The translations under genes and the position numbers were made by a program. A stretch of 64,000 bases of DNA, taken from assembly GCF_011064615.1 (NCBI RefSeq), contig NZ_JAALJH010000056.1, positions 1-64,000 on the forward strand. Direction: 5' to 3'. Shown here piece by piece: positions 18,910 to 29,047 of this stretch; within the stretch, counting starts at the first letter, position 1; each line of letters begins with the position of its first letter. Under the pieces are notes generated by a model. It had not been told where the DNA came from, ran no database searches, and saw only the letters and a list, made by a program, of their open reading frames with translations. Source of the stretch: Aquisphaera insulae. Its GTDB lineage: Bacteria; Planctomycetota; Planctomycetia; Isosphaerales; Isosphaeraceae.

Positions 18910-20286
18910 CTATCGAATGATCCAGAGTCGCTTGGAGTGGGTCGCGTCGGTCGCCATGAAGAAGAGCAACCCGGAGTTGACGACGACATTGCTTGGATTC
19001 GAGCTCATCGTCCCCGCGTAGGTGTCCTGCAAGAGCGAGGTGCCCGCGGAGGTGCCGTCGCTCTTCCACATCTCGACCCCATAGGTCGGCGTTGAAGCGG
19101 AGAAGTAGAGCGTTCCGTTCACGTAGCTCAGTTGTGACGGGCATGACCCGCCGAGGCCGCTGAAGATGTCCTTCACCAGGGTCGTGCCGGCGGCGGTGCC
19201 GTCGCTCTTCCATAGCTCGGTACCTTGCGACCCGTTGTCGGCCGCGAAATAGACCGTGCCTCCCACGGCCAGGATGTTGTTCGGCTTGGAGTCGCCCGCT
19301 CCGGGGTTGATATCCTTGACCATCACGGTGCCGGCCCCGGTCCCGTCACTCTTCCACAGCTCCCGCCCGTTCGTGCCGTCCGTCGCACTGAAGTAGAGAT
19401 TGCCGTTGACGTTGGTCAGCCAACTGGGCGATGACGATCCCGCCCCCGCGACGAGGTCCTTGACCATGACGGTGCCGGTGGCGGTGCCGTCGCTCTTCCA
19501 CAGCTCGACCCCGCTGGACCCGTTGTTGGCCGTGAAGAAGACGGTCCCGTTGACATTCGTCAGCCCGGAGGGGAAGGAGCCGGTGATCCCCGGGAGGATA
19601 TCCTTCACCTGGGTCGTACCGGCGGCGGTGCCGTCGGAGATCCACAACTCATTCCCCTGCAATCCGCCATTCGCCACGAACATGAGCCGCGACCCGAATG
19701 CGGTCAAGTTCGTCGGGAACGAGCTGCCGAGGTTCCCGGGATTGATGTCCTTGACCATGACGGTGCCGGCGGCTGTGCCGTCGCTCTTCCACAGCTCGGT
19801 GCCGGCGCTCGGGGTATAGGCGGAATAGTAGACCGTTCCGTTGACGTTGACCAGGTTCTGGGGGTTGGATCCGGAGGTCGCGGGCGCCACATCCTTGACC
19901 AGGGTCGTTCCCGCCGAGGTGCCGTCGCTCTTCCACAGCTCGAAGCCGTGCAACGGGTCGAAGGCGGAGAAATACAACGTGTTGCCGACGGCGCGCATGT
20001 TGGACGGCATCGACCCCCGGAGTCCGGGGTTGATGTCCGCGACCATGGCGGTGCCGACGGTGGTGCCGTCGCTCTTCCACAACTCCTGGCCGTGCACGCC
20101 GTCATCGGCGACGAAGAACAGATTCGAGCCCGCGGCCACCGCTCCCCCGGATAGCGTCGCCGGGAGGTCGATCGGGGCCACCGAGAGGAGGCTCCTCGTC
20201 TCGAGCGACTCGAGGGCGGGCGTCCGACGCCGACGCGCTTTCTGCGGCCCGTAGGAGCGGAAATTCGGCTTCAAGGATTCAAACAC
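18910..20286 (-). CDS. ELW-repeat surface protein with LEPR-XLL N-terminus
   Basis: A 458-residue protein built of eight full repeats of about 48 residues, each containing ELWKSDGT or a close variant followed by xAGTxxVKDI. The ninth is cut short at RLWIIR. This is the ELWxxDGT repeat family, usually predicted to form beta-propellers. Before the repeats is RRRRTPALESLETRSLLS, the planctomycete LEPR-XLL motif seen at the N-terminus of exported giant proteins. GTG 20286 is preceded by GGGAG at 8 bases spacing; a second GTG at 20322 is possible but has no such site. It is probably surface or extracellular; binding partner unknown. It ends toward the hairpin at 18835-18866. Confidence 0.85.
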   Translation of the reverse strand: MFESLKPNFRSYGPQKARRRRTPALESLETRSLLSVAPIDLPATLSGGAVAAGSNLFFVADDGVHGQELWKSDGTTVGTAMVADINPGLRGSMPSNMRAVGNTLYFSAFDPLHGFELWKSDGTSAGTTLVKDVAPATSGSNPQNLVNVNGTVYYSAYTPSAGTELWKSDGTAAGTVMVKDINPGNLGSSFPTNLTAFGSRLMFVANGGLQGNELWISDGTAAGTTQVKDILPGITGSFPSGLTNVNGTVFFTANNGSSGVELWKSDGTATGTVMVKDLVAGAGSSSPSWLTNVNGNLYFSATDGTNGRELWKSDGTGAGTVMVKDINPGAGDSKPNNILAVGGTVYFAADNGSQGTELWKSDGTAAGTTLVKDIFSGLGGSCPSQLSYVNGTLYFSASTPTYGVEMWKSDGTSAGTSLLQDTYAGTMSSNPSNVVVNSGLLFFMATDATHSKRLWIIR

Positions 20287-21426
20287 GTATGCGTCTCCCG
20301 TCGTCGAGCTGGAGCGATCCACGCTCGAGGGTCACTCGGTGGTGTCGGTGGAATCGGGAAAATTAACCCGCCGGGGGGAGCCGTCCTCGGCCCTCGAGAC
20401 TGGTTGCGCCGGGATCGAAACGTGGATCTCGACGCGAGACTGCAAGCTGTCATCACCCTGGACTTGCCGTGGACCGGGCGATGGGTCGGGCGCGGCATAC
20501 CTGTCGGAAACATAGGTCACGCCCGCCGTTCCCTCGCGGCCCTTTCGCGGAACGGCCCCAGACTATGCGGCCCTCCCCGACCCATGTCAACCAAAAAAGA
20601 GAAAACTTCTAGATAAAAGCGAGTTCGTACCTACTCGTACTATTATGAGTAAATGCATTCGAGATGTCGTCCCGGCGTGGCTTGCCGGCGGGCCGGGGGC
20701 CCGGCCGAGGATCGGAATAGTCCGCCGATCGTCGGCGGGCTACGTGCTAGATGTCGTGCCTTGAGGCTAAGCGTGATCTTGCGTGTCGCGGATGGGAGCG
20801 GCTCGGCTCTCGTCGAATCCCGACGACGCGTCGGGGACCCGCCGCGTCCCGTCGTCCCGCCGACGGACCCTCCTGCGAGTCGATCGCGACTTCCCGCCTC
20901 GTCGCGACGCGGTATGTTCGCTGGACAACATGAGCATCATTGCACTCTTGCGTGCAGGGCCGAGGCCTTCCTTCGACCCGGCCCACGCATCGTGGAGGTG
21001 AGGATGCACCCGCCGCTGGGCCGGGGTGCCTTCACGGATGGAACGCGGCTCGGTAAGGAGGCATCAGGCTGCTTTGCATGGTGCCGGCACGTCGACGCCG
21101 CCCGGGGCGGTGCGGTACGCCATCAGTGAGCCGGCATGGATGGCATCCCTCTGGGGGCGTGCCACGGGACGTTGCGACGACGAGTATCTTGCCGCGACGA
21201 GTCGTTGTCAAGCAGCTATAGACAAATCTTCGAAGATCAAACGTTATCATTCTTTAGCATCAAACATAGTATCTACCAAGGGTGATGCGATCTCGTCGTT
21301 CATCGCTGCCTCCATCGTCGTGCCGCGGCGCGAGCGTCCCCGGGGACCAGGCGGGATCGCGGTCGCATGCGCGGCACACCGGCCCTCCCGAGCCGAGGGG
21401 ATTCGCGATCGACGTTCGTCGGCGAC
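20287..21426. other. 1.1-kb region without a convincing gene
   Basis: Open frames here lack family signals and look like chance products of GC-rich DNA. Two A/T-rich patches stand out: 20580-20660, with the imperfect inverted repeat TACTC/GAGTA around 20632-20651, and 21210-21280, with a perfect 12-base palindrome ATCTTCGAAGAT at 21226-21237. The left end should contain the promoter of the ELW-repeat gene. I see no transposase remnant, tRNA or recognisable RNA. Confidence 0.45.
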
Positions 21427-22080: not shown

Positions 22081-25000
22081 ATGGTGCCGGACTACTACGC
22101 CAGGCTGGGGGTCGATCCGAGGGCGACGACGGCCGAGATCGAGGCCGCGCTTCGGAAGCGTCAGCCCGCGTGGTCGATGGGGACGAGGAACCCGAAGACC
22201 CGGCACGCGAACCAGCTCTATCTCGACGAGGTCCCGGCCCTCCGCCGCGCCCTCCTCGGCGGGCCGGAGGCGCGGGCGTCCTACGACGCGGACCTCGCCG
22301 CGGTCGAGATCGCGGTGCGGGAGGAGAAGCTCGACCGGCTCCAACGGCGGATCCGGCTCCGGTCGGCCAAGGGGGGGCTTACGGCCGACGATCGCGGCCT
22401 GCTCCGCGAGGAGGCCGGACGCCTCGGCCTCGACGACCAGGCCCTGGAGCGGCTGACCCGGAACATCCCCGACCTCCTCCCGCAGGTCCGGATGGACGAC
22501 GCACCGGAGGAGGACGAGGGCCCCGCCGACGTCCTCGACCCCTCGACGCGGAGGCAAATCCACGCCGCGCTCGAACACCTCGGCCGCCGCAACCTGTACG
22601 ACGCGCTCGACCTGCCGCGCGAGGCGCCCGCCTCGATCGTGGCCGCCAGGGCCGACGAGGAGCGACAACGCTGGATGCGGAAGGCCCAGGTGACGGCGGA
22701 GAAGACCGCGTGGCTCGAGGCCATCTCGCACGCCCAGTCGCACCTCACCACGCCCAGGGAGAGGGCCCGCTACGACCGCACGCTGGACCATGAGTCCGAG
22801 GAACGGTTCGAAGAGGTCACGGGGTTCGCCCTGAGGGGGCTGACGCGGCTCGATGCCGGCACCCGCGAGGCGCTCCTCGCGGAGGCGGCCGCGCTGGGCG
22901 TTCGGGCGGACCGGGCCGATCGCCTCCTGCGGCGGGCCTGCCGCAAGCTGGGGATCGCGCAGGACGGCGGCGCCGTGGCTCCGGCCGGACCGGCGGCGCG
23001 CGCGGGAGCCGCTGCCAGGGCCGCCGGGCCGGAGAGCTATCCCCAGGTCCGTTGCCGGAGCTGCTCCGGCCTGACCGAGCTGAGCCCGACGGCCCGGCGC
23101 TCCGGGGCGGCTCGCTGCCGGCACTGCGGGGCGACGCTGCGGTGGGACTGCCCCGTCTGCCGCCGGAATCACGGGATCGACCGGGCGAAGTGCGATTGCG
23201 GCTTCCCGCTGGCACTCCGCGAGCCCGTCGTGCGTCACGTGGCCGCCGCGCAGCAGGCCTTCCGCCGCCACGACCTGGCCGTGTCGCGCGAGCACCTGGA
23301 GCAGGTCCAGCGATACGCCCCCAACCACCCGGGGGCGAGGAACGGGCTCGAGAAGATCCGCGAGCGGCAGGCGGCCATCGAGCAGGTCCGGATGGCCTGC
23401 GAGCTGGCGCTGGCCGGCCGTCGGCTGGCCGCGGCGAGGCGCGCGGCGGACGCCTGGCGGCGGCTGGACGACCCGGCCAATCCCGAGATTCGCCAGGCGT
23501 GGAAGGCGATCGGCGAGGGACTTCGACAGGCCGAGTCCCTGGCGGCCCGAGGCCGGGCCCTCGAACGGGTCGATCCGTCGGCGGCGCGGGCCCTTTACAG
23601 GAGGAGCCTGGAGGTTGCCGCGGATCTCCCCGAGGCCCTGGCGGGACTTCAGCGGTGCCCGCCGGATGGGCCGACCGGCCTGCGCGCACAGTCCCTCGGG
23701 GACCGAATCCGCCTGTGGTGGACTCCCCCCGCGCCCGATGGCCTGGGGCCGCTGACCTTCGCGATCGTCCGGAAGCGGGGCGGCATCCCGGAACAGCCCG
23801 GCGACGGCACGAGGATCGCGGAGGTCTCCACCTGCGAATACGACGACCGGCACGTCCGGCCGGGCGAGTCCGTCGGCTATGCGGTCCTCGGCAAGCGAGG
23901 GGAGGCGGAGTCGCTGGCCGCCGTGGCCGTCGGCCCGGTCGTCTACCTCCCCGACGTCGAGGATGTCCGGGTCGAGCCGCGCCAGTCCGAGGTGGAGCTC
24001 TCGTGGATCCCGCCCCACGGCGTCTTCGAGGTCCGCGTCGTCCGCAAGCTGGGCTCTCCCCCCGAGGGCCCGCGCGACGGCACGAGGATCCCCGCCGCGC
24101 TCGACCACGCGGTGGATGCGGACGCCCGGCCAACCGACGGGTCGATCGTCCATTACGGGATCTACGCCATCTACCGGGCGTCGGAAGGCCGGCGCTACCC
24201 GTCCCCGGGCGTCCTGGCGACGGCCGGCCGGCAGGATCTGTCGCCGCCGATGGGGGCCCCGCGGCTCTCCCGAGGCCCGGGACGTTCGGTCGTCCTCGAC
24301 TGGGTCGATCCGCCTCGCGGATCGGTGCGGATCCTCCGGACACTCCGGCCGCTCCCCTTCCCCCCCGGCGCGCGGATCCGGATCGAGGACGCGGAGCCGC
24401 TCGGCTCCTGGGTGGCCCTGACCGGGCCGAACCGCGCGGAGGATCCCGACCCGCCGGCCGTCGCCTGCTACTACACGGCAACCGTCGCGATCGGCACGAC
24501 CCTGACCCTCGGCGGCACGGCGGTCGCCAGCCAGGTCGCCGAGCCGTCCGACCTCCGCGCCACCCGATCCGGCACGCCATCGGTCAACGGATCGGCCGGC
24601 GTGCGGGTTTCGCTCCGCTGGATCTGGCCCCCGAGTGCGACCGGCACCCGGCTGGCCGCCCGCTGGGGGGCTCCCCCGGACGGCCCCGACGATCCGCGAT
24701 CGATCGCGACGACCGTGCTTCGCGAGGACTACGATCGGCACGGCTCGTGGTCGCTGAGCCTCCCCGCGACCGGCCCGCGGACGCCCGCCTCCAGGCCGGA
24801 CGACCGCGCCGACGGCGGCGTCAACGGCCATGCGACGGGGGCCGTCGCCGCTGCCGTTGCGGTTCATCCGCCCCTGGATCGCTGGTACATCACCGCGTAC
24901 ACGGTCCTCGATCAGGGCGGAGAGCTCGCCTTCTCCGCGGGCCACGAGCCGTCCGCGACGACCACCGTTCCGGGCCCGCACCCCGAGATCACGATCCGCT

Positions 25001-25305
25001 ATGCCCTCAAGCGGCCGTGGCTTCCCGGCAGGCCCTGGTCGCTGACCCTGTCCACGGAGCCGCCCGGGGAGCCGATCCCCCCCATGGTGCTGGTCGCCAA
25101 CCTCCGGGCCATCCCGCTCTCCACCGAGGATGGCGAGGTCATCGCCCGCTTCCCGGCCGGCCGCGACGGTGCCAGCCATCCCATCCGCACCGCCTTCCCG
25201 CTCGGTCGATCGGGCGTCCGAGCCTTCATCGATCCCCTCGCCGACCCCGCCTCCATCCCCCCCATCCGGCTCCGCCACCCCGAGGACGGCGCCACCCGCG
25301 CCTGA
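22081..25305 (+). CDS. Large protein with two J-like segments, two zinc ribbons and FnIII-like domains
   Basis: A 1074-residue, apparently cytoplasmic protein with no signal peptide. The N-terminus (1-75) looks like a DnaJ domain: YYARLGVDPRATTAEIEAAL, then PEARASYD. A second J-like unit spans about 152-238 (YDALDLPREAP, then PRERARYDRTL). Neither has the HPD tripeptide needed to stimulate Hsp70. Two zinc ribbons follow, with cysteines C325/C328, C346/C349, C357/C360 and C371/C373. Then comes a helical TPR-like segment (about 385-520) and several fibronectin III-like domains from about 530 to the end (for example IRLWWTPPAPDGLGPLTFAI and VELSWIPPHGVFEVRVV). I do not recognise a named family. 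Position 22081 is the first start that gives the J-like N-terminus, although the frame is open upstream. The unknown gene at 25539 follows on the same strand. Confidence 0.75.
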   Translation: MVPDYYARLGVDPRATTAEIEAALRKRQPAWSMGTRNPKTRHANQLYLDEVPALRRALLGGPEARASYDADLAAVEIAVREEKLDRLQRRIRLRSAKGGLTADDRGLLREEAGRLGLDDQALERLTRNIPDLLPQVRMDDAPEEDEGPADVLDPSTRRQIHAALEHLGRRNLYDALDLPREAPASIVAARADEERQRWMRKAQVTAEKTAWLEAISHAQSHLTTPRERARYDRTLDHESEERFEEVTGFALRGLTRLDAGTREALLAEAAALGVRADRADRLLRRACRKLGIAQDGGAVAPAGPAARAGAAARAAGPESYPQVRCRSCSGLTELSPTARRSGAARCRHCGATLRWDCPVCRRNHGIDRAKCDCGFPLALREPVVRHVAAAQQAFRRHDLAVSREHLEQVQRYAPNHPGARNGLEKIRERQAAIEQVRMACELALAGRRLAAARRAADAWRRLDDPANPEIRQAWKAIGEGLRQAESLAARGRALERVDPSAARALYRRSLEVAADLPEALAGLQRCPPDGPTGLRAQSLGDRIRLWWTPPAPDGLGPLTFAIVRKRGGIPEQPGDGTRIAEVSTCEYDDRHVRPGESVGYAVLGKRGEAESLAAVAVGPVVYLPDVEDVRVEPRQSEVELSWIPPHGVFEVRVVRKLGSPPEGPRDGTRIPAALDHAVDADARPTDGSIVHYGIYAIYRASEGRRYPSPGVLATAGRQDLSPPMGAPRLSRGPGRSVVLDWVDPPRGSVRILRTLRPLPFPPGARIRIEDAEPLGSWVALTGPNRAEDPDPPAVACYYTATVAIGTTLTLGGTAVASQVAEPSDLRATRSGTPSVNGSAGVRVSLRWIWPPSATGTRLAARWGAPPDGPDDPRSIATTVLREDYDRHGSWSLSLPATGPRTPASRPDDRADGGVNGHATGAVAAAVAVHPPLDRWYITAYTVLDQGGELAFSAGHEPSATTTVPGPHPEITIRYALKRPWLPGRPWSLTLSTEPPGEPIPPMVLVANLRAIPLSTEDGEVIARFPAGRDGASHPIRTAFPLGRSGVRAFIDPLADPASIPPIRLRHPEDGATRA

Positions 25306-25538: not shown

Positions 25539-26282
25539 ATGAATCCATACAGCAACGACGCCGACGATTTTTACGTCAATGTTCATCTGAATACCGAGAT
25601 GGAGCTGCCGACGAACCGGGACACCGTGCTCCATTTCTTTGAGCAGATGAAGAAGGGGTTCCCGGACTTGCGGAACTTCCACACGAGGGAGAACGGCGAC
25701 CTCGTGCTGGAGGGGGACAAGGAGAAGGCGGCCTACCGGTGGGTCTCGATCGAGCCGAGGCGGCTTTGCAGCGGCCACACCAATCCGGAATCGATGGATG
25801 AGGCCTACCGGCAGCACGAGCTGCTGCTGGACCTGGCGCCGCCCCTGCTGACGATCAGCCTGCTGGACTGCGAGGCGCTCGACGTCATGTATGGGTTCGA
25901 CTTCACCTACGAGGGGAACCACGACGAGGTGGTGACCGAGGCCCTGGGGGTGGGCAACGCGATCGAGGGCCTGCTCGAGCTGCCCCGGACCCGGGTGATC
26001 AACTTCGAGCCCTCGATCACGCTGGCGCTCGACGAGTCGTGCCAGCTCCAGTGCCGGCTCTCGATCGAGACCCGGACGAACACGTTCCAGGTCCGGAGCA
26101 ACGAATTCGCGGACGATCAGCTCAGCGTCTATTTCACGATCCGGCAATACTGGGGCGCCGGCCCGGACCGGAGCTTCGTGGAGTCGTTCCGCCGCCAGAA
26201 GGAGGTCGGCGAGGAGATCCTCCGCCGCTCCGTGATCCCGCGGATCGTCCGCCCGCTGGCCCAGGTGATCGCCTCGCGCTAA
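25539..26282 (+). CDS. Conserved-looking protein of unknown function
   Basis: A 247-residue soluble protein without signal peptide or transmembrane helix. Composition and codon use match neighbouring real genes. It is acidic and mixed alpha/beta, with segments such as RDTVLHFFEQMKKGFPDL, LEGDKEKAAYRWVSIEPRRL and a C-terminal helix VGEEILRRSVIPRIVRPLAQ. I do not recognise the family. The aminotransferase starts 34 bases after its stop, so the two are probably co-transcribed. The 233-base gap upstream, which has an A/T-rich part around 25345-25380, should hold its promoter. Confidence 0.7.
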   Translation: MNPYSNDADDFYVNVHLNTEMELPTNRDTVLHFFEQMKKGFPDLRNFHTRENGDLVLEGDKEKAAYRWVSIEPRRLCSGHTNPESMDEAYRQHELLLDLAPPLLTISLLDCEALDVMYGFDFTYEGNHDEVVTEALGVGNAIEGLLELPRTRVINFEPSITLALDESCQLQCRLSIETRTNTFQVRSNEFADDQLSVYFTIRQYWGAGPDRSFVESFRRQKEVGEEILRRSVIPRIVRPLAQVIASR

Positions 26283-28430: not shown

Positions 28431-28664
28431 ATGATCACGATCTCGATTCAAGAAGCCCAGAGCCGGCTCTCTGATCTGATTCACAATCTCTCGCCGGGGG
28501 ACGAACTGGTCATCACCGAGAACAACCAGCCTGTGGCCAGGCTGTCCCGCAGCGAGCCTAAGACCCAGTGGCCGCGCAAGGCCGGTAGCGCCAAGGGGAG
28601 GCCACACTGGATGGCTCCCGATTTTGACGCCCCGCTCGAGGATTTCAAGGAGTACATGGAGTGA
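28431..28664 (+). CDS. Phd/YefM family antitoxin
   Basis: A 77-residue protein beginning MITISIQEAQSRLSDLI, with GDELVITENNQPVARL, the standard N-terminal DNA-binding fold of Phd/YefM antitoxins. The C-terminal half (about 45-77) would wrap the toxin. It overlaps the PIN toxin gene by 4 bases (GTGA), the usual coupling for such modules. The complex normally represses its own promoter, which should lie in 28245-28430. A longer frame from 28245 adds 62 residues without family resemblance, so ATG 28431 is used. Confidence 0.9.
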   Translation: MITISIQEAQSRLSDLIHNLSPGDELVITENNQPVARLSRSEPKTQWPRKAGSAKGRPHWMAPDFDAPLEDFKEYME

Positions 28665-29047
28665 ACCTGCTCCTCGATTCCCACAGTTTCCTCTGGTTCG
28701 TGTGGGACGACCCTCAGCTCTCCCCCACGGCCAAGGCACTGATCGAGGACCCGGCGAATCGCTGTCTCGTCAGCGTGGCGAGCTGCTGGGAGATCTCCAT
28801 CAAGGTGGGCCTGAAGAAGCTTGAGCTAGGCGAACCCGCCACGACGTTCGTCTCTCGGGAGCTGACGACGAACCGCTTCGACCTCCTCGGGATCGAGCTA
28901 ATCCACGCAACCTCCGTCGAGGCGCTTCCGCCCCACCACAAGGATCCCTTCGACCGACTGCTCGTCGTGCAATCGATGATCGAGAACCTGCCAGTCGTCA
29001 GCGCGGACACCCAACTCGATGCCTACGGAATAACCCGGCTCTGGTAA
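28661..29047 (+). CDS. PIN domain toxin (VapC-like RNase)
   Basis: A 128-residue PIN domain protein. The acidic metal-binding residues are in place: D6 (LLLDSHSFLW), E44 (SCWEISIK), D98 (HHKDPFDRLL) and D116 (VVSADTQL). Proteins of this family are Mg2+-dependent endoribonucleases that cut specific RNAs when freed from the antitoxin. The LDSHSFLWF start and the HxDPFDRLL segment are typical of the subgroup paired with Phd-type antitoxins. The GTG start overlaps the antitoxin stop. The toxin appears intact. Confidence 0.92.
   Translation: MNLLLDSHSFLWFVWDDPQLSPTAKALIEDPANRCLVSVASCWEISIKVGLKKLELGEPATTFVSRELTTNRFDLLGIELIHATSVEALPPHHKDPFDRLLVVQSMIENLPVVSADTQLDAYGITRLW

Follow-up and report, generated by a model that had tools for sequence, protein, structure and literature searches.

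The HPD motif, which lies between helices II and III of the J domain, is regarded as essential to J-protein action. In the DnaK-DnaJ complex this motif is touched by both R167 of DnaK and the interdomain linker, with R167 bonding to D35 of the HPD (PMC8215388). J domains have also been described next to fibronectin-type repeats: GAP1-N2 GTPase systems, which carry Hsp70/GrpE and a second Hsp70, include FnIII proteins fused to DnaJ or TPR (PMC7159879).

The protein studied here, P0001 (1,074 aa), is encoded by an open frame in a 64,000-nt stretch of the Aquisphaera insulae genome (the window, G+C 69%; contig NZ_JAALJH010000056.1). The host genome measures 10 Mb and holds a single copy of the gene. 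Conservation among orthologues begins at position 22081, which supports that start. The chain opens with J1 and J2, each with TerB-like helices behind it, and continues with four cysteine pairs and a TPR region; four FnIII sandwiches and a C-terminal beta domain make up the rest (Table 1). The relatives belong to the Isosphaeraceae (e.g., Singulisphaera, Paludisphaera and Tautonia), and since orthologues at 37-78% identity share the complete domain order, a chance origin is excluded. The original prediction could not name the architecture; it is not entirely without precedent, FnIII fused to DnaJ or TPR being already on record (PMC7159879). Neighbors of the gene in the window, named from sequence, are a RidA-like gene on the other strand, a 247-aa protein, an aminotransferase and a DNA glycosylase-like gene. 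The window further holds a small pair judged by eye to be antitoxin-like and PIN-domain toxin-like (28431-29047), and a minus-strand protein with many ELWKSDGT repeats (18910-20322). Outside the window, genes were called with a home-made codon-usage caller.

Table 1. Features of the P0001 gene and its downstream neighbor, by position in the window
Feature	Residues	Position	Strand	Evidence
J-J-cysteine pairs-TPR-FnIII protein P0001	1-1074	22081..25305	+	Open frame; orthologues at 37-78% identity
J-like domain 1	1-75	22081..22305	+	Pfam DnaJ in 14/15 members; Foldseek J fold; invariant WSxGTRNPK replacing HPD
Post-J1 helices, TerB-like	76-130	22306..22470	+	Model helices 102-114 and 119-126; weak Pfam TerB in homologous segments
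J-like domain 2, without HPD, WxxKxQVTAEKTAW loop	165-240	22573..22800	+	hhalign to J1; model; conservation
Post-J2 helices, TerB-like	241-292	22801..22956	+	Model; hhalign
Zinc-ribbon-like region, four cysteine pairs	324-375	23050..23205	+	Columns at least 90% conserved; lost in L019
TPR-like helical region	380-525	23218..23655	+	Pfam TPR_2 in 6/15 members; weak profile matches to TPR proteins
Four FnIII sandwiches	~530-960	23668..24960	+	Titin profile match; model; Foldseek to fibronectin
Conserved C-terminal beta domain	~961-1074	24961..25302	+	Model strands; mean 53% identity
247-aa protein, syntenic neighbor only		25539..26282	+	In 39/40 Planctomycetia genomes

As a single sequence, P0001 scored 19.7 bits against Pfam DnaJ, under the cut-off of 27.8. 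Among family members the best match reached 2.5e-9, and a search with the family profile retrieved the J domains of DNAJB6 and DnaJ. For residues 1-385, an AlphaFold model with a pLDDT of 80.6 matched solved J domains in Foldseek with a probability of up to 1.00 and an rmsd of about 2 Å over about 63 columns; the great length of the query compared with a J domain makes the E-values of these matches weak. Homology between J1 and J2 extends to the helices behind them (hhalign 95.5%), and in related proteins the segments homologous to these helices matched Pfam TerB at 0.019 and 0.0013, under the TerB cut-off. No aligned member has HPD in either J domain, so that P0001 has the fold of a canonical J-domain protein without its motif. 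Both loops, W-S-x-G-T-R-N-P-K in J1 and W-x2-K-x-Q-V-T-A-E-K-T-A-W in J2, are nearly invariant, which argues that they have some function.

The cysteine pairs (C325/C328, C346/C349, C357/C360 and C371/C373, the last a CxC) are conserved but missing from one member. The FnIII part matched titin by profile (1.2e-14) and fibronectin by fold (Foldseek, 1e-11), family members gave Pfam fn3 and TPR matches, and the AlphaFold model of residues 518-1074 had a pLDDT of 84. The C-terminal beta domain is better conserved than FnIII domains 3 and 4; apart from one weak match, the phylum sample contained no wider homologue of it. A hydropathy scan revealed no transmembrane (TM) segment in P0001. The parts listed by the original prediction, namely two J-like segments lacking HPD, zinc-ribbon-like cysteines, TPR-like and FnIII-like regions and no export signal, are thus borne out, and the comparison with DnaJ and FnIII folds that it had suggested ended in matches of the models to J domains and fibronectin.

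Of 45 Isosphaeraceae genomes, 37 carry the P0001 gene; in a 294-genome sample of the phylum a full-length relative was found only in its own genome. Across orthologue loci the neighbors are RidA, the 247-aa protein, an aminotransferase and a GAF-like or FKBP gene. The 247-aa gene lies 3' of the P0001 gene in many loci and had been put forward as a partner. We reject it as a dedicated one, as it occurs in nearly all Planctomycetia genomes with or without the P0001 gene (Table 1); it has no Pfam match. A GAF-like gene upstream in 12 loci was also rejected, being absent from the A. insulae genome and adjoining the 247-aa gene in a genome that lacks P0001 (G001). The original prediction had looked to nearby Hsp70, GTPase or MoxR genes; none of these, and no GrpE gene, was recognized near the P0001 gene in any Isosphaeraceae locus examined. 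An NCBIfam search gave nothing useful, and spread by plasmids was rejected, no match having been found.

Using a profile built from the J and post-J module, we retrieved relatives in other planctomycete families, and none of the full module matches carried HPD. P0001 shares what defines these modules, a J fold that lacks HPD and has TerB-like helices behind it. Counted within the single phylum Planctomycetota, 17 of 25 distinct loci with an HPD-less J+TerB-like module had an Hsp70 gene on the same strand within a 1.5-kb flank, as against 0 of 22 HPD-bearing J gene loci retrieved by the same profile and given equal flanks (duplicate loci removed by hand; p ~2e-7 with the control counted as 25 loci). 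The other 8 of the 25 had no adjacent Hsp70, and P0001 likewise belongs to the class by its module and not by an adjacent Hsp70, since the Isosphaeraceae show co-occurrence only. The original prediction held Hsp70 stimulation to be unlikely; in view of this linkage and of the co-occurrence of P0001 with a specific divergent Hsp70 (see below), the inference that a link to Hsp70 is improbable is not supported. We found no description of HPD-less J/Hsp70 pairs in bacteria in the literature searched, most subscription papers being outside its reach.

The module loci vary in composition. One cassette reads GrpE, Hsp70, J-TM (L229) and another GrpE, Hsp70, J, FHA-GAF-histidine kinase (L239). In the latter and in a similar locus (L239:2551-9555 and L240:415-7723), GrpE is fused to a long N-terminal region and is accompanied by Hsp70, an HPD-less J protein and an FHA-containing histidine kinase, assigned as FHA-GAF-HisKA by Pfam in L239 and judged by sequence in L240. 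In another planctomycete family, L190:6325-10253 and L191:6661-10392 hold an operon of GrpE, a short Hsp70 and a tandem HPD-less J-TM-PDZ protein, the Hsp70 having A at position 167, D at 170 and V at 173. Four further loci (L171:5998-7413, L235, L236 and L238) encode an HPD-less J module with a TM-like segment after it and then, by eye, an FGE-sulfatase-type domain, with no adjacent Hsp70. An FnIII protein of genome G124 (L081), at first taken to have a J-like N terminus, was dropped when the module profile did not find one.

The Hsp70s linked to the modules differ from DnaK where DnaK contacts the HPD. The R167 equivalent is S, A or G in 15 of 15 readable module-linked Hsp70s and R in 12 of 12 DnaKs, and the linked proteins have also lost the VLLLDVTP linker. 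A 564-aa Hsp70 of the Isosphaeraceae has A or S at this position (6/6). As a mark specific to HPD-less partners the loss of R167 is weakened by unlinked divergent Hsp70s of other families, which carry D or E there.

The gene of the 564-aa Hsp70 (G000:C308) stands in an Isosphaeraceae operon with an Hsp70-vWA fusion, two FHA membrane proteins and a vWA protein; the Hsp70 with the C-terminal vWA fusion beside FHA membrane proteins (L107:9328-11439) is conserved in the family. This Hsp70 and the P0001 gene agree in 42 of 45 Isosphaeraceae genomes, with both present in 35 and neither in 7, and the co-absences are four separate ones by genus. Collapsed to 23 genus units, the co-occurrence had p = 0.008, and among genomes of up to 6.6 Mb, again by genus, p was 0.02. 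Both values fall short of a full phylogenetic correction, and genome size and relatedness are partial confounders of the co-occurrence. One discordant genome, 81% complete, has the 564-aa Hsp70 without the P0001 gene (G011), and two have the gene without that Hsp70 (G012 and G013). The G012 orthologue has lost J1 and its J2 is eroded, and a recheck of this genome found no close Hsp70 of the 564-aa type (best 32%). In the G013 orthologue both loop motifs are lost; a frameshift splits it at the J/cysteine boundary (L048:8470-11530). The TPR and FnIII parts stay where the loop motifs erode. Both motifs are kept in every inspected orthologue from genomes with the 564-aa Hsp70, a set of which part was retrieved by those very motifs, so that only orthologues found otherwise count as unbiased.

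A scaffold or adaptor role, already favored by the original prediction, remains the most plausible for P0001. More specifically, we propose, with a probability of about 0.6, that it is an adaptor that docks a dedicated divergent Hsp70 independently of HPD and keeps its TPR and FnIII arms for other partners. Working in the cytoplasm, the two N-terminal HPD-less J + TerB-like modules would dock the 564-aa, non-DnaK Hsp70 through the WSxGTRNPK and QVTAEKTAW loops, which would take the place of the HPD-R167 contact and might stimulate the ATPase. The cysteine, TPR, FnIII and C-terminal beta parts may bind clients or other components, and the Hsp70 would thereby be brought to a particular complex. 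We favor this reading because module loci adjoin Hsp70 at a frequency not seen for HPD-bearing J genes (17/25 versus 0/22), because the linked Hsp70s lack the residue that contacts HPD, because the P0001 gene and the 564-aa Hsp70 agree so widely (42/45), and because the loops are lost in the two genomes that have the gene without this Hsp70.

It is unlikely, in our estimate, that P0001 is instead a scaffold unrelated to Hsp70, with J folds that are relics reused as generic interaction modules and a co-occurrence that reflects shared loss in reduced genomes. Such a scaffold would fit the lack of HPD in every member, the fact that the gene never adjoins Hsp70 in Isosphaeraceae and the tendency of genomes without it to be small. 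However, it leaves the linkage of the module class unaccounted for, the association holds among small genomes, and the loops erode just where the 564-aa Hsp70 is missing while TPR and FnIII remain. Somewhat less likely again is that P0001 is the FnIII component, encoded apart from the rest, of a conflict-type GAP1-N2/DO-GTPase system with Hsp70 and GrpE among its members (PMC7159879), its FnIII arm sensing a trigger. The building blocks are the same, FnIII with DnaJ and TPR; in one genome (G009) a zinc-ribbon DO-GTPase and GrpE adjoin the Hsp70 pair, and the A. insulae genome has DO-GTPase2 matches. Among the neighbors read at the loci of the P0001 gene, though, no GTPase or GAP1 was recognized, PADLOC matched no known anti-phage defense family, which led us to reject a defense annotation, and a gene so broadly conserved in the family seems less mobile than a defense gene would be. 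As a co-occurring partner DO-GTPase was uninformative, being present in genomes without the P0001 gene (e.g., G001 and G007).

We consider it very improbable that P0001 is a Pam16-like negative regulator, in which an HPD-less J module pairs with an HPD-bearing J protein and tunes a DnaK. In Pam16/Pam18, HPD-less J-like domains are known to pair with J domains, and J1 and J2 are tandem homologues; but neither of the two has HPD, the module loci read showed no HPD-bearing J gene alongside, and the Hsp70 encoded at these loci no longer has the residue that contacts HPD.

Beyond the adaptor reading of P0001 itself, we tentatively suggest, at somewhat less than even odds, that Planctomycetota possess a class of Hsp70 machines working without the HPD-R167 switch. 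In these, divergent Hsp70s lacking the J-docking arginine and the linker would have as their partners HPD-less J/TerB-like modules whose loop is of the PK type (NPK, SPK or similar) and which are joined to PDZ, coiled-coil, cysteine-rich or FnIII parts, and P0001 would be an unlinked, tandem-module, FnIII-bearing member. If HPD-less J modules are indeed tied genetically to R167-less Hsp70s, they would represent a natural experiment on alternative Hsp70 recruitment or control, for which the analysis names specific partner pairs and loop residues.

Among known systems, P0001 resembles the FnIII component of the GAP1-N2 DO-GTPase systems in having FnIII repeats fused to DnaJ or TPR (PMC7159879). 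It differs in combining tandem HPD-less J + TerB-like modules, TPR and FnIII in one chain, in being unlinked from Hsp70, GrpE, GTPase and GAP1, and in its restriction to Isosphaeraceae. As this theme is known, we regard P0001 as a dispersed HPD-less variant of it and not as a new kind of protein. Like Pam16/Magmas it has a J-like domain without HPD; Pam16 pairs with the HPD-bearing Pam18, and no such partner was seen for P0001. With the class C J-domain proteins DjlB and DjlC and their partner HscC (PMC8215388), it shares a J fold fused to other domains and, as proposed here, dedication to a divergent Hsp70 and not to DnaK, whereas neither J domain of P0001 has HPD, and both R167 and the VLLLD linker are missing from the partner Hsp70s. 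The HPD-less modules of L170, L173, L190, L191, L229 and L239 have the same J fold without HPD, the PK-type loop and the post-J helices; unlike P0001, most of them consist of one module, which stands by itself or is fused to TM-PDZ, a coiled coil or cysteine pairs, and they lie in an operon with Hsp70.
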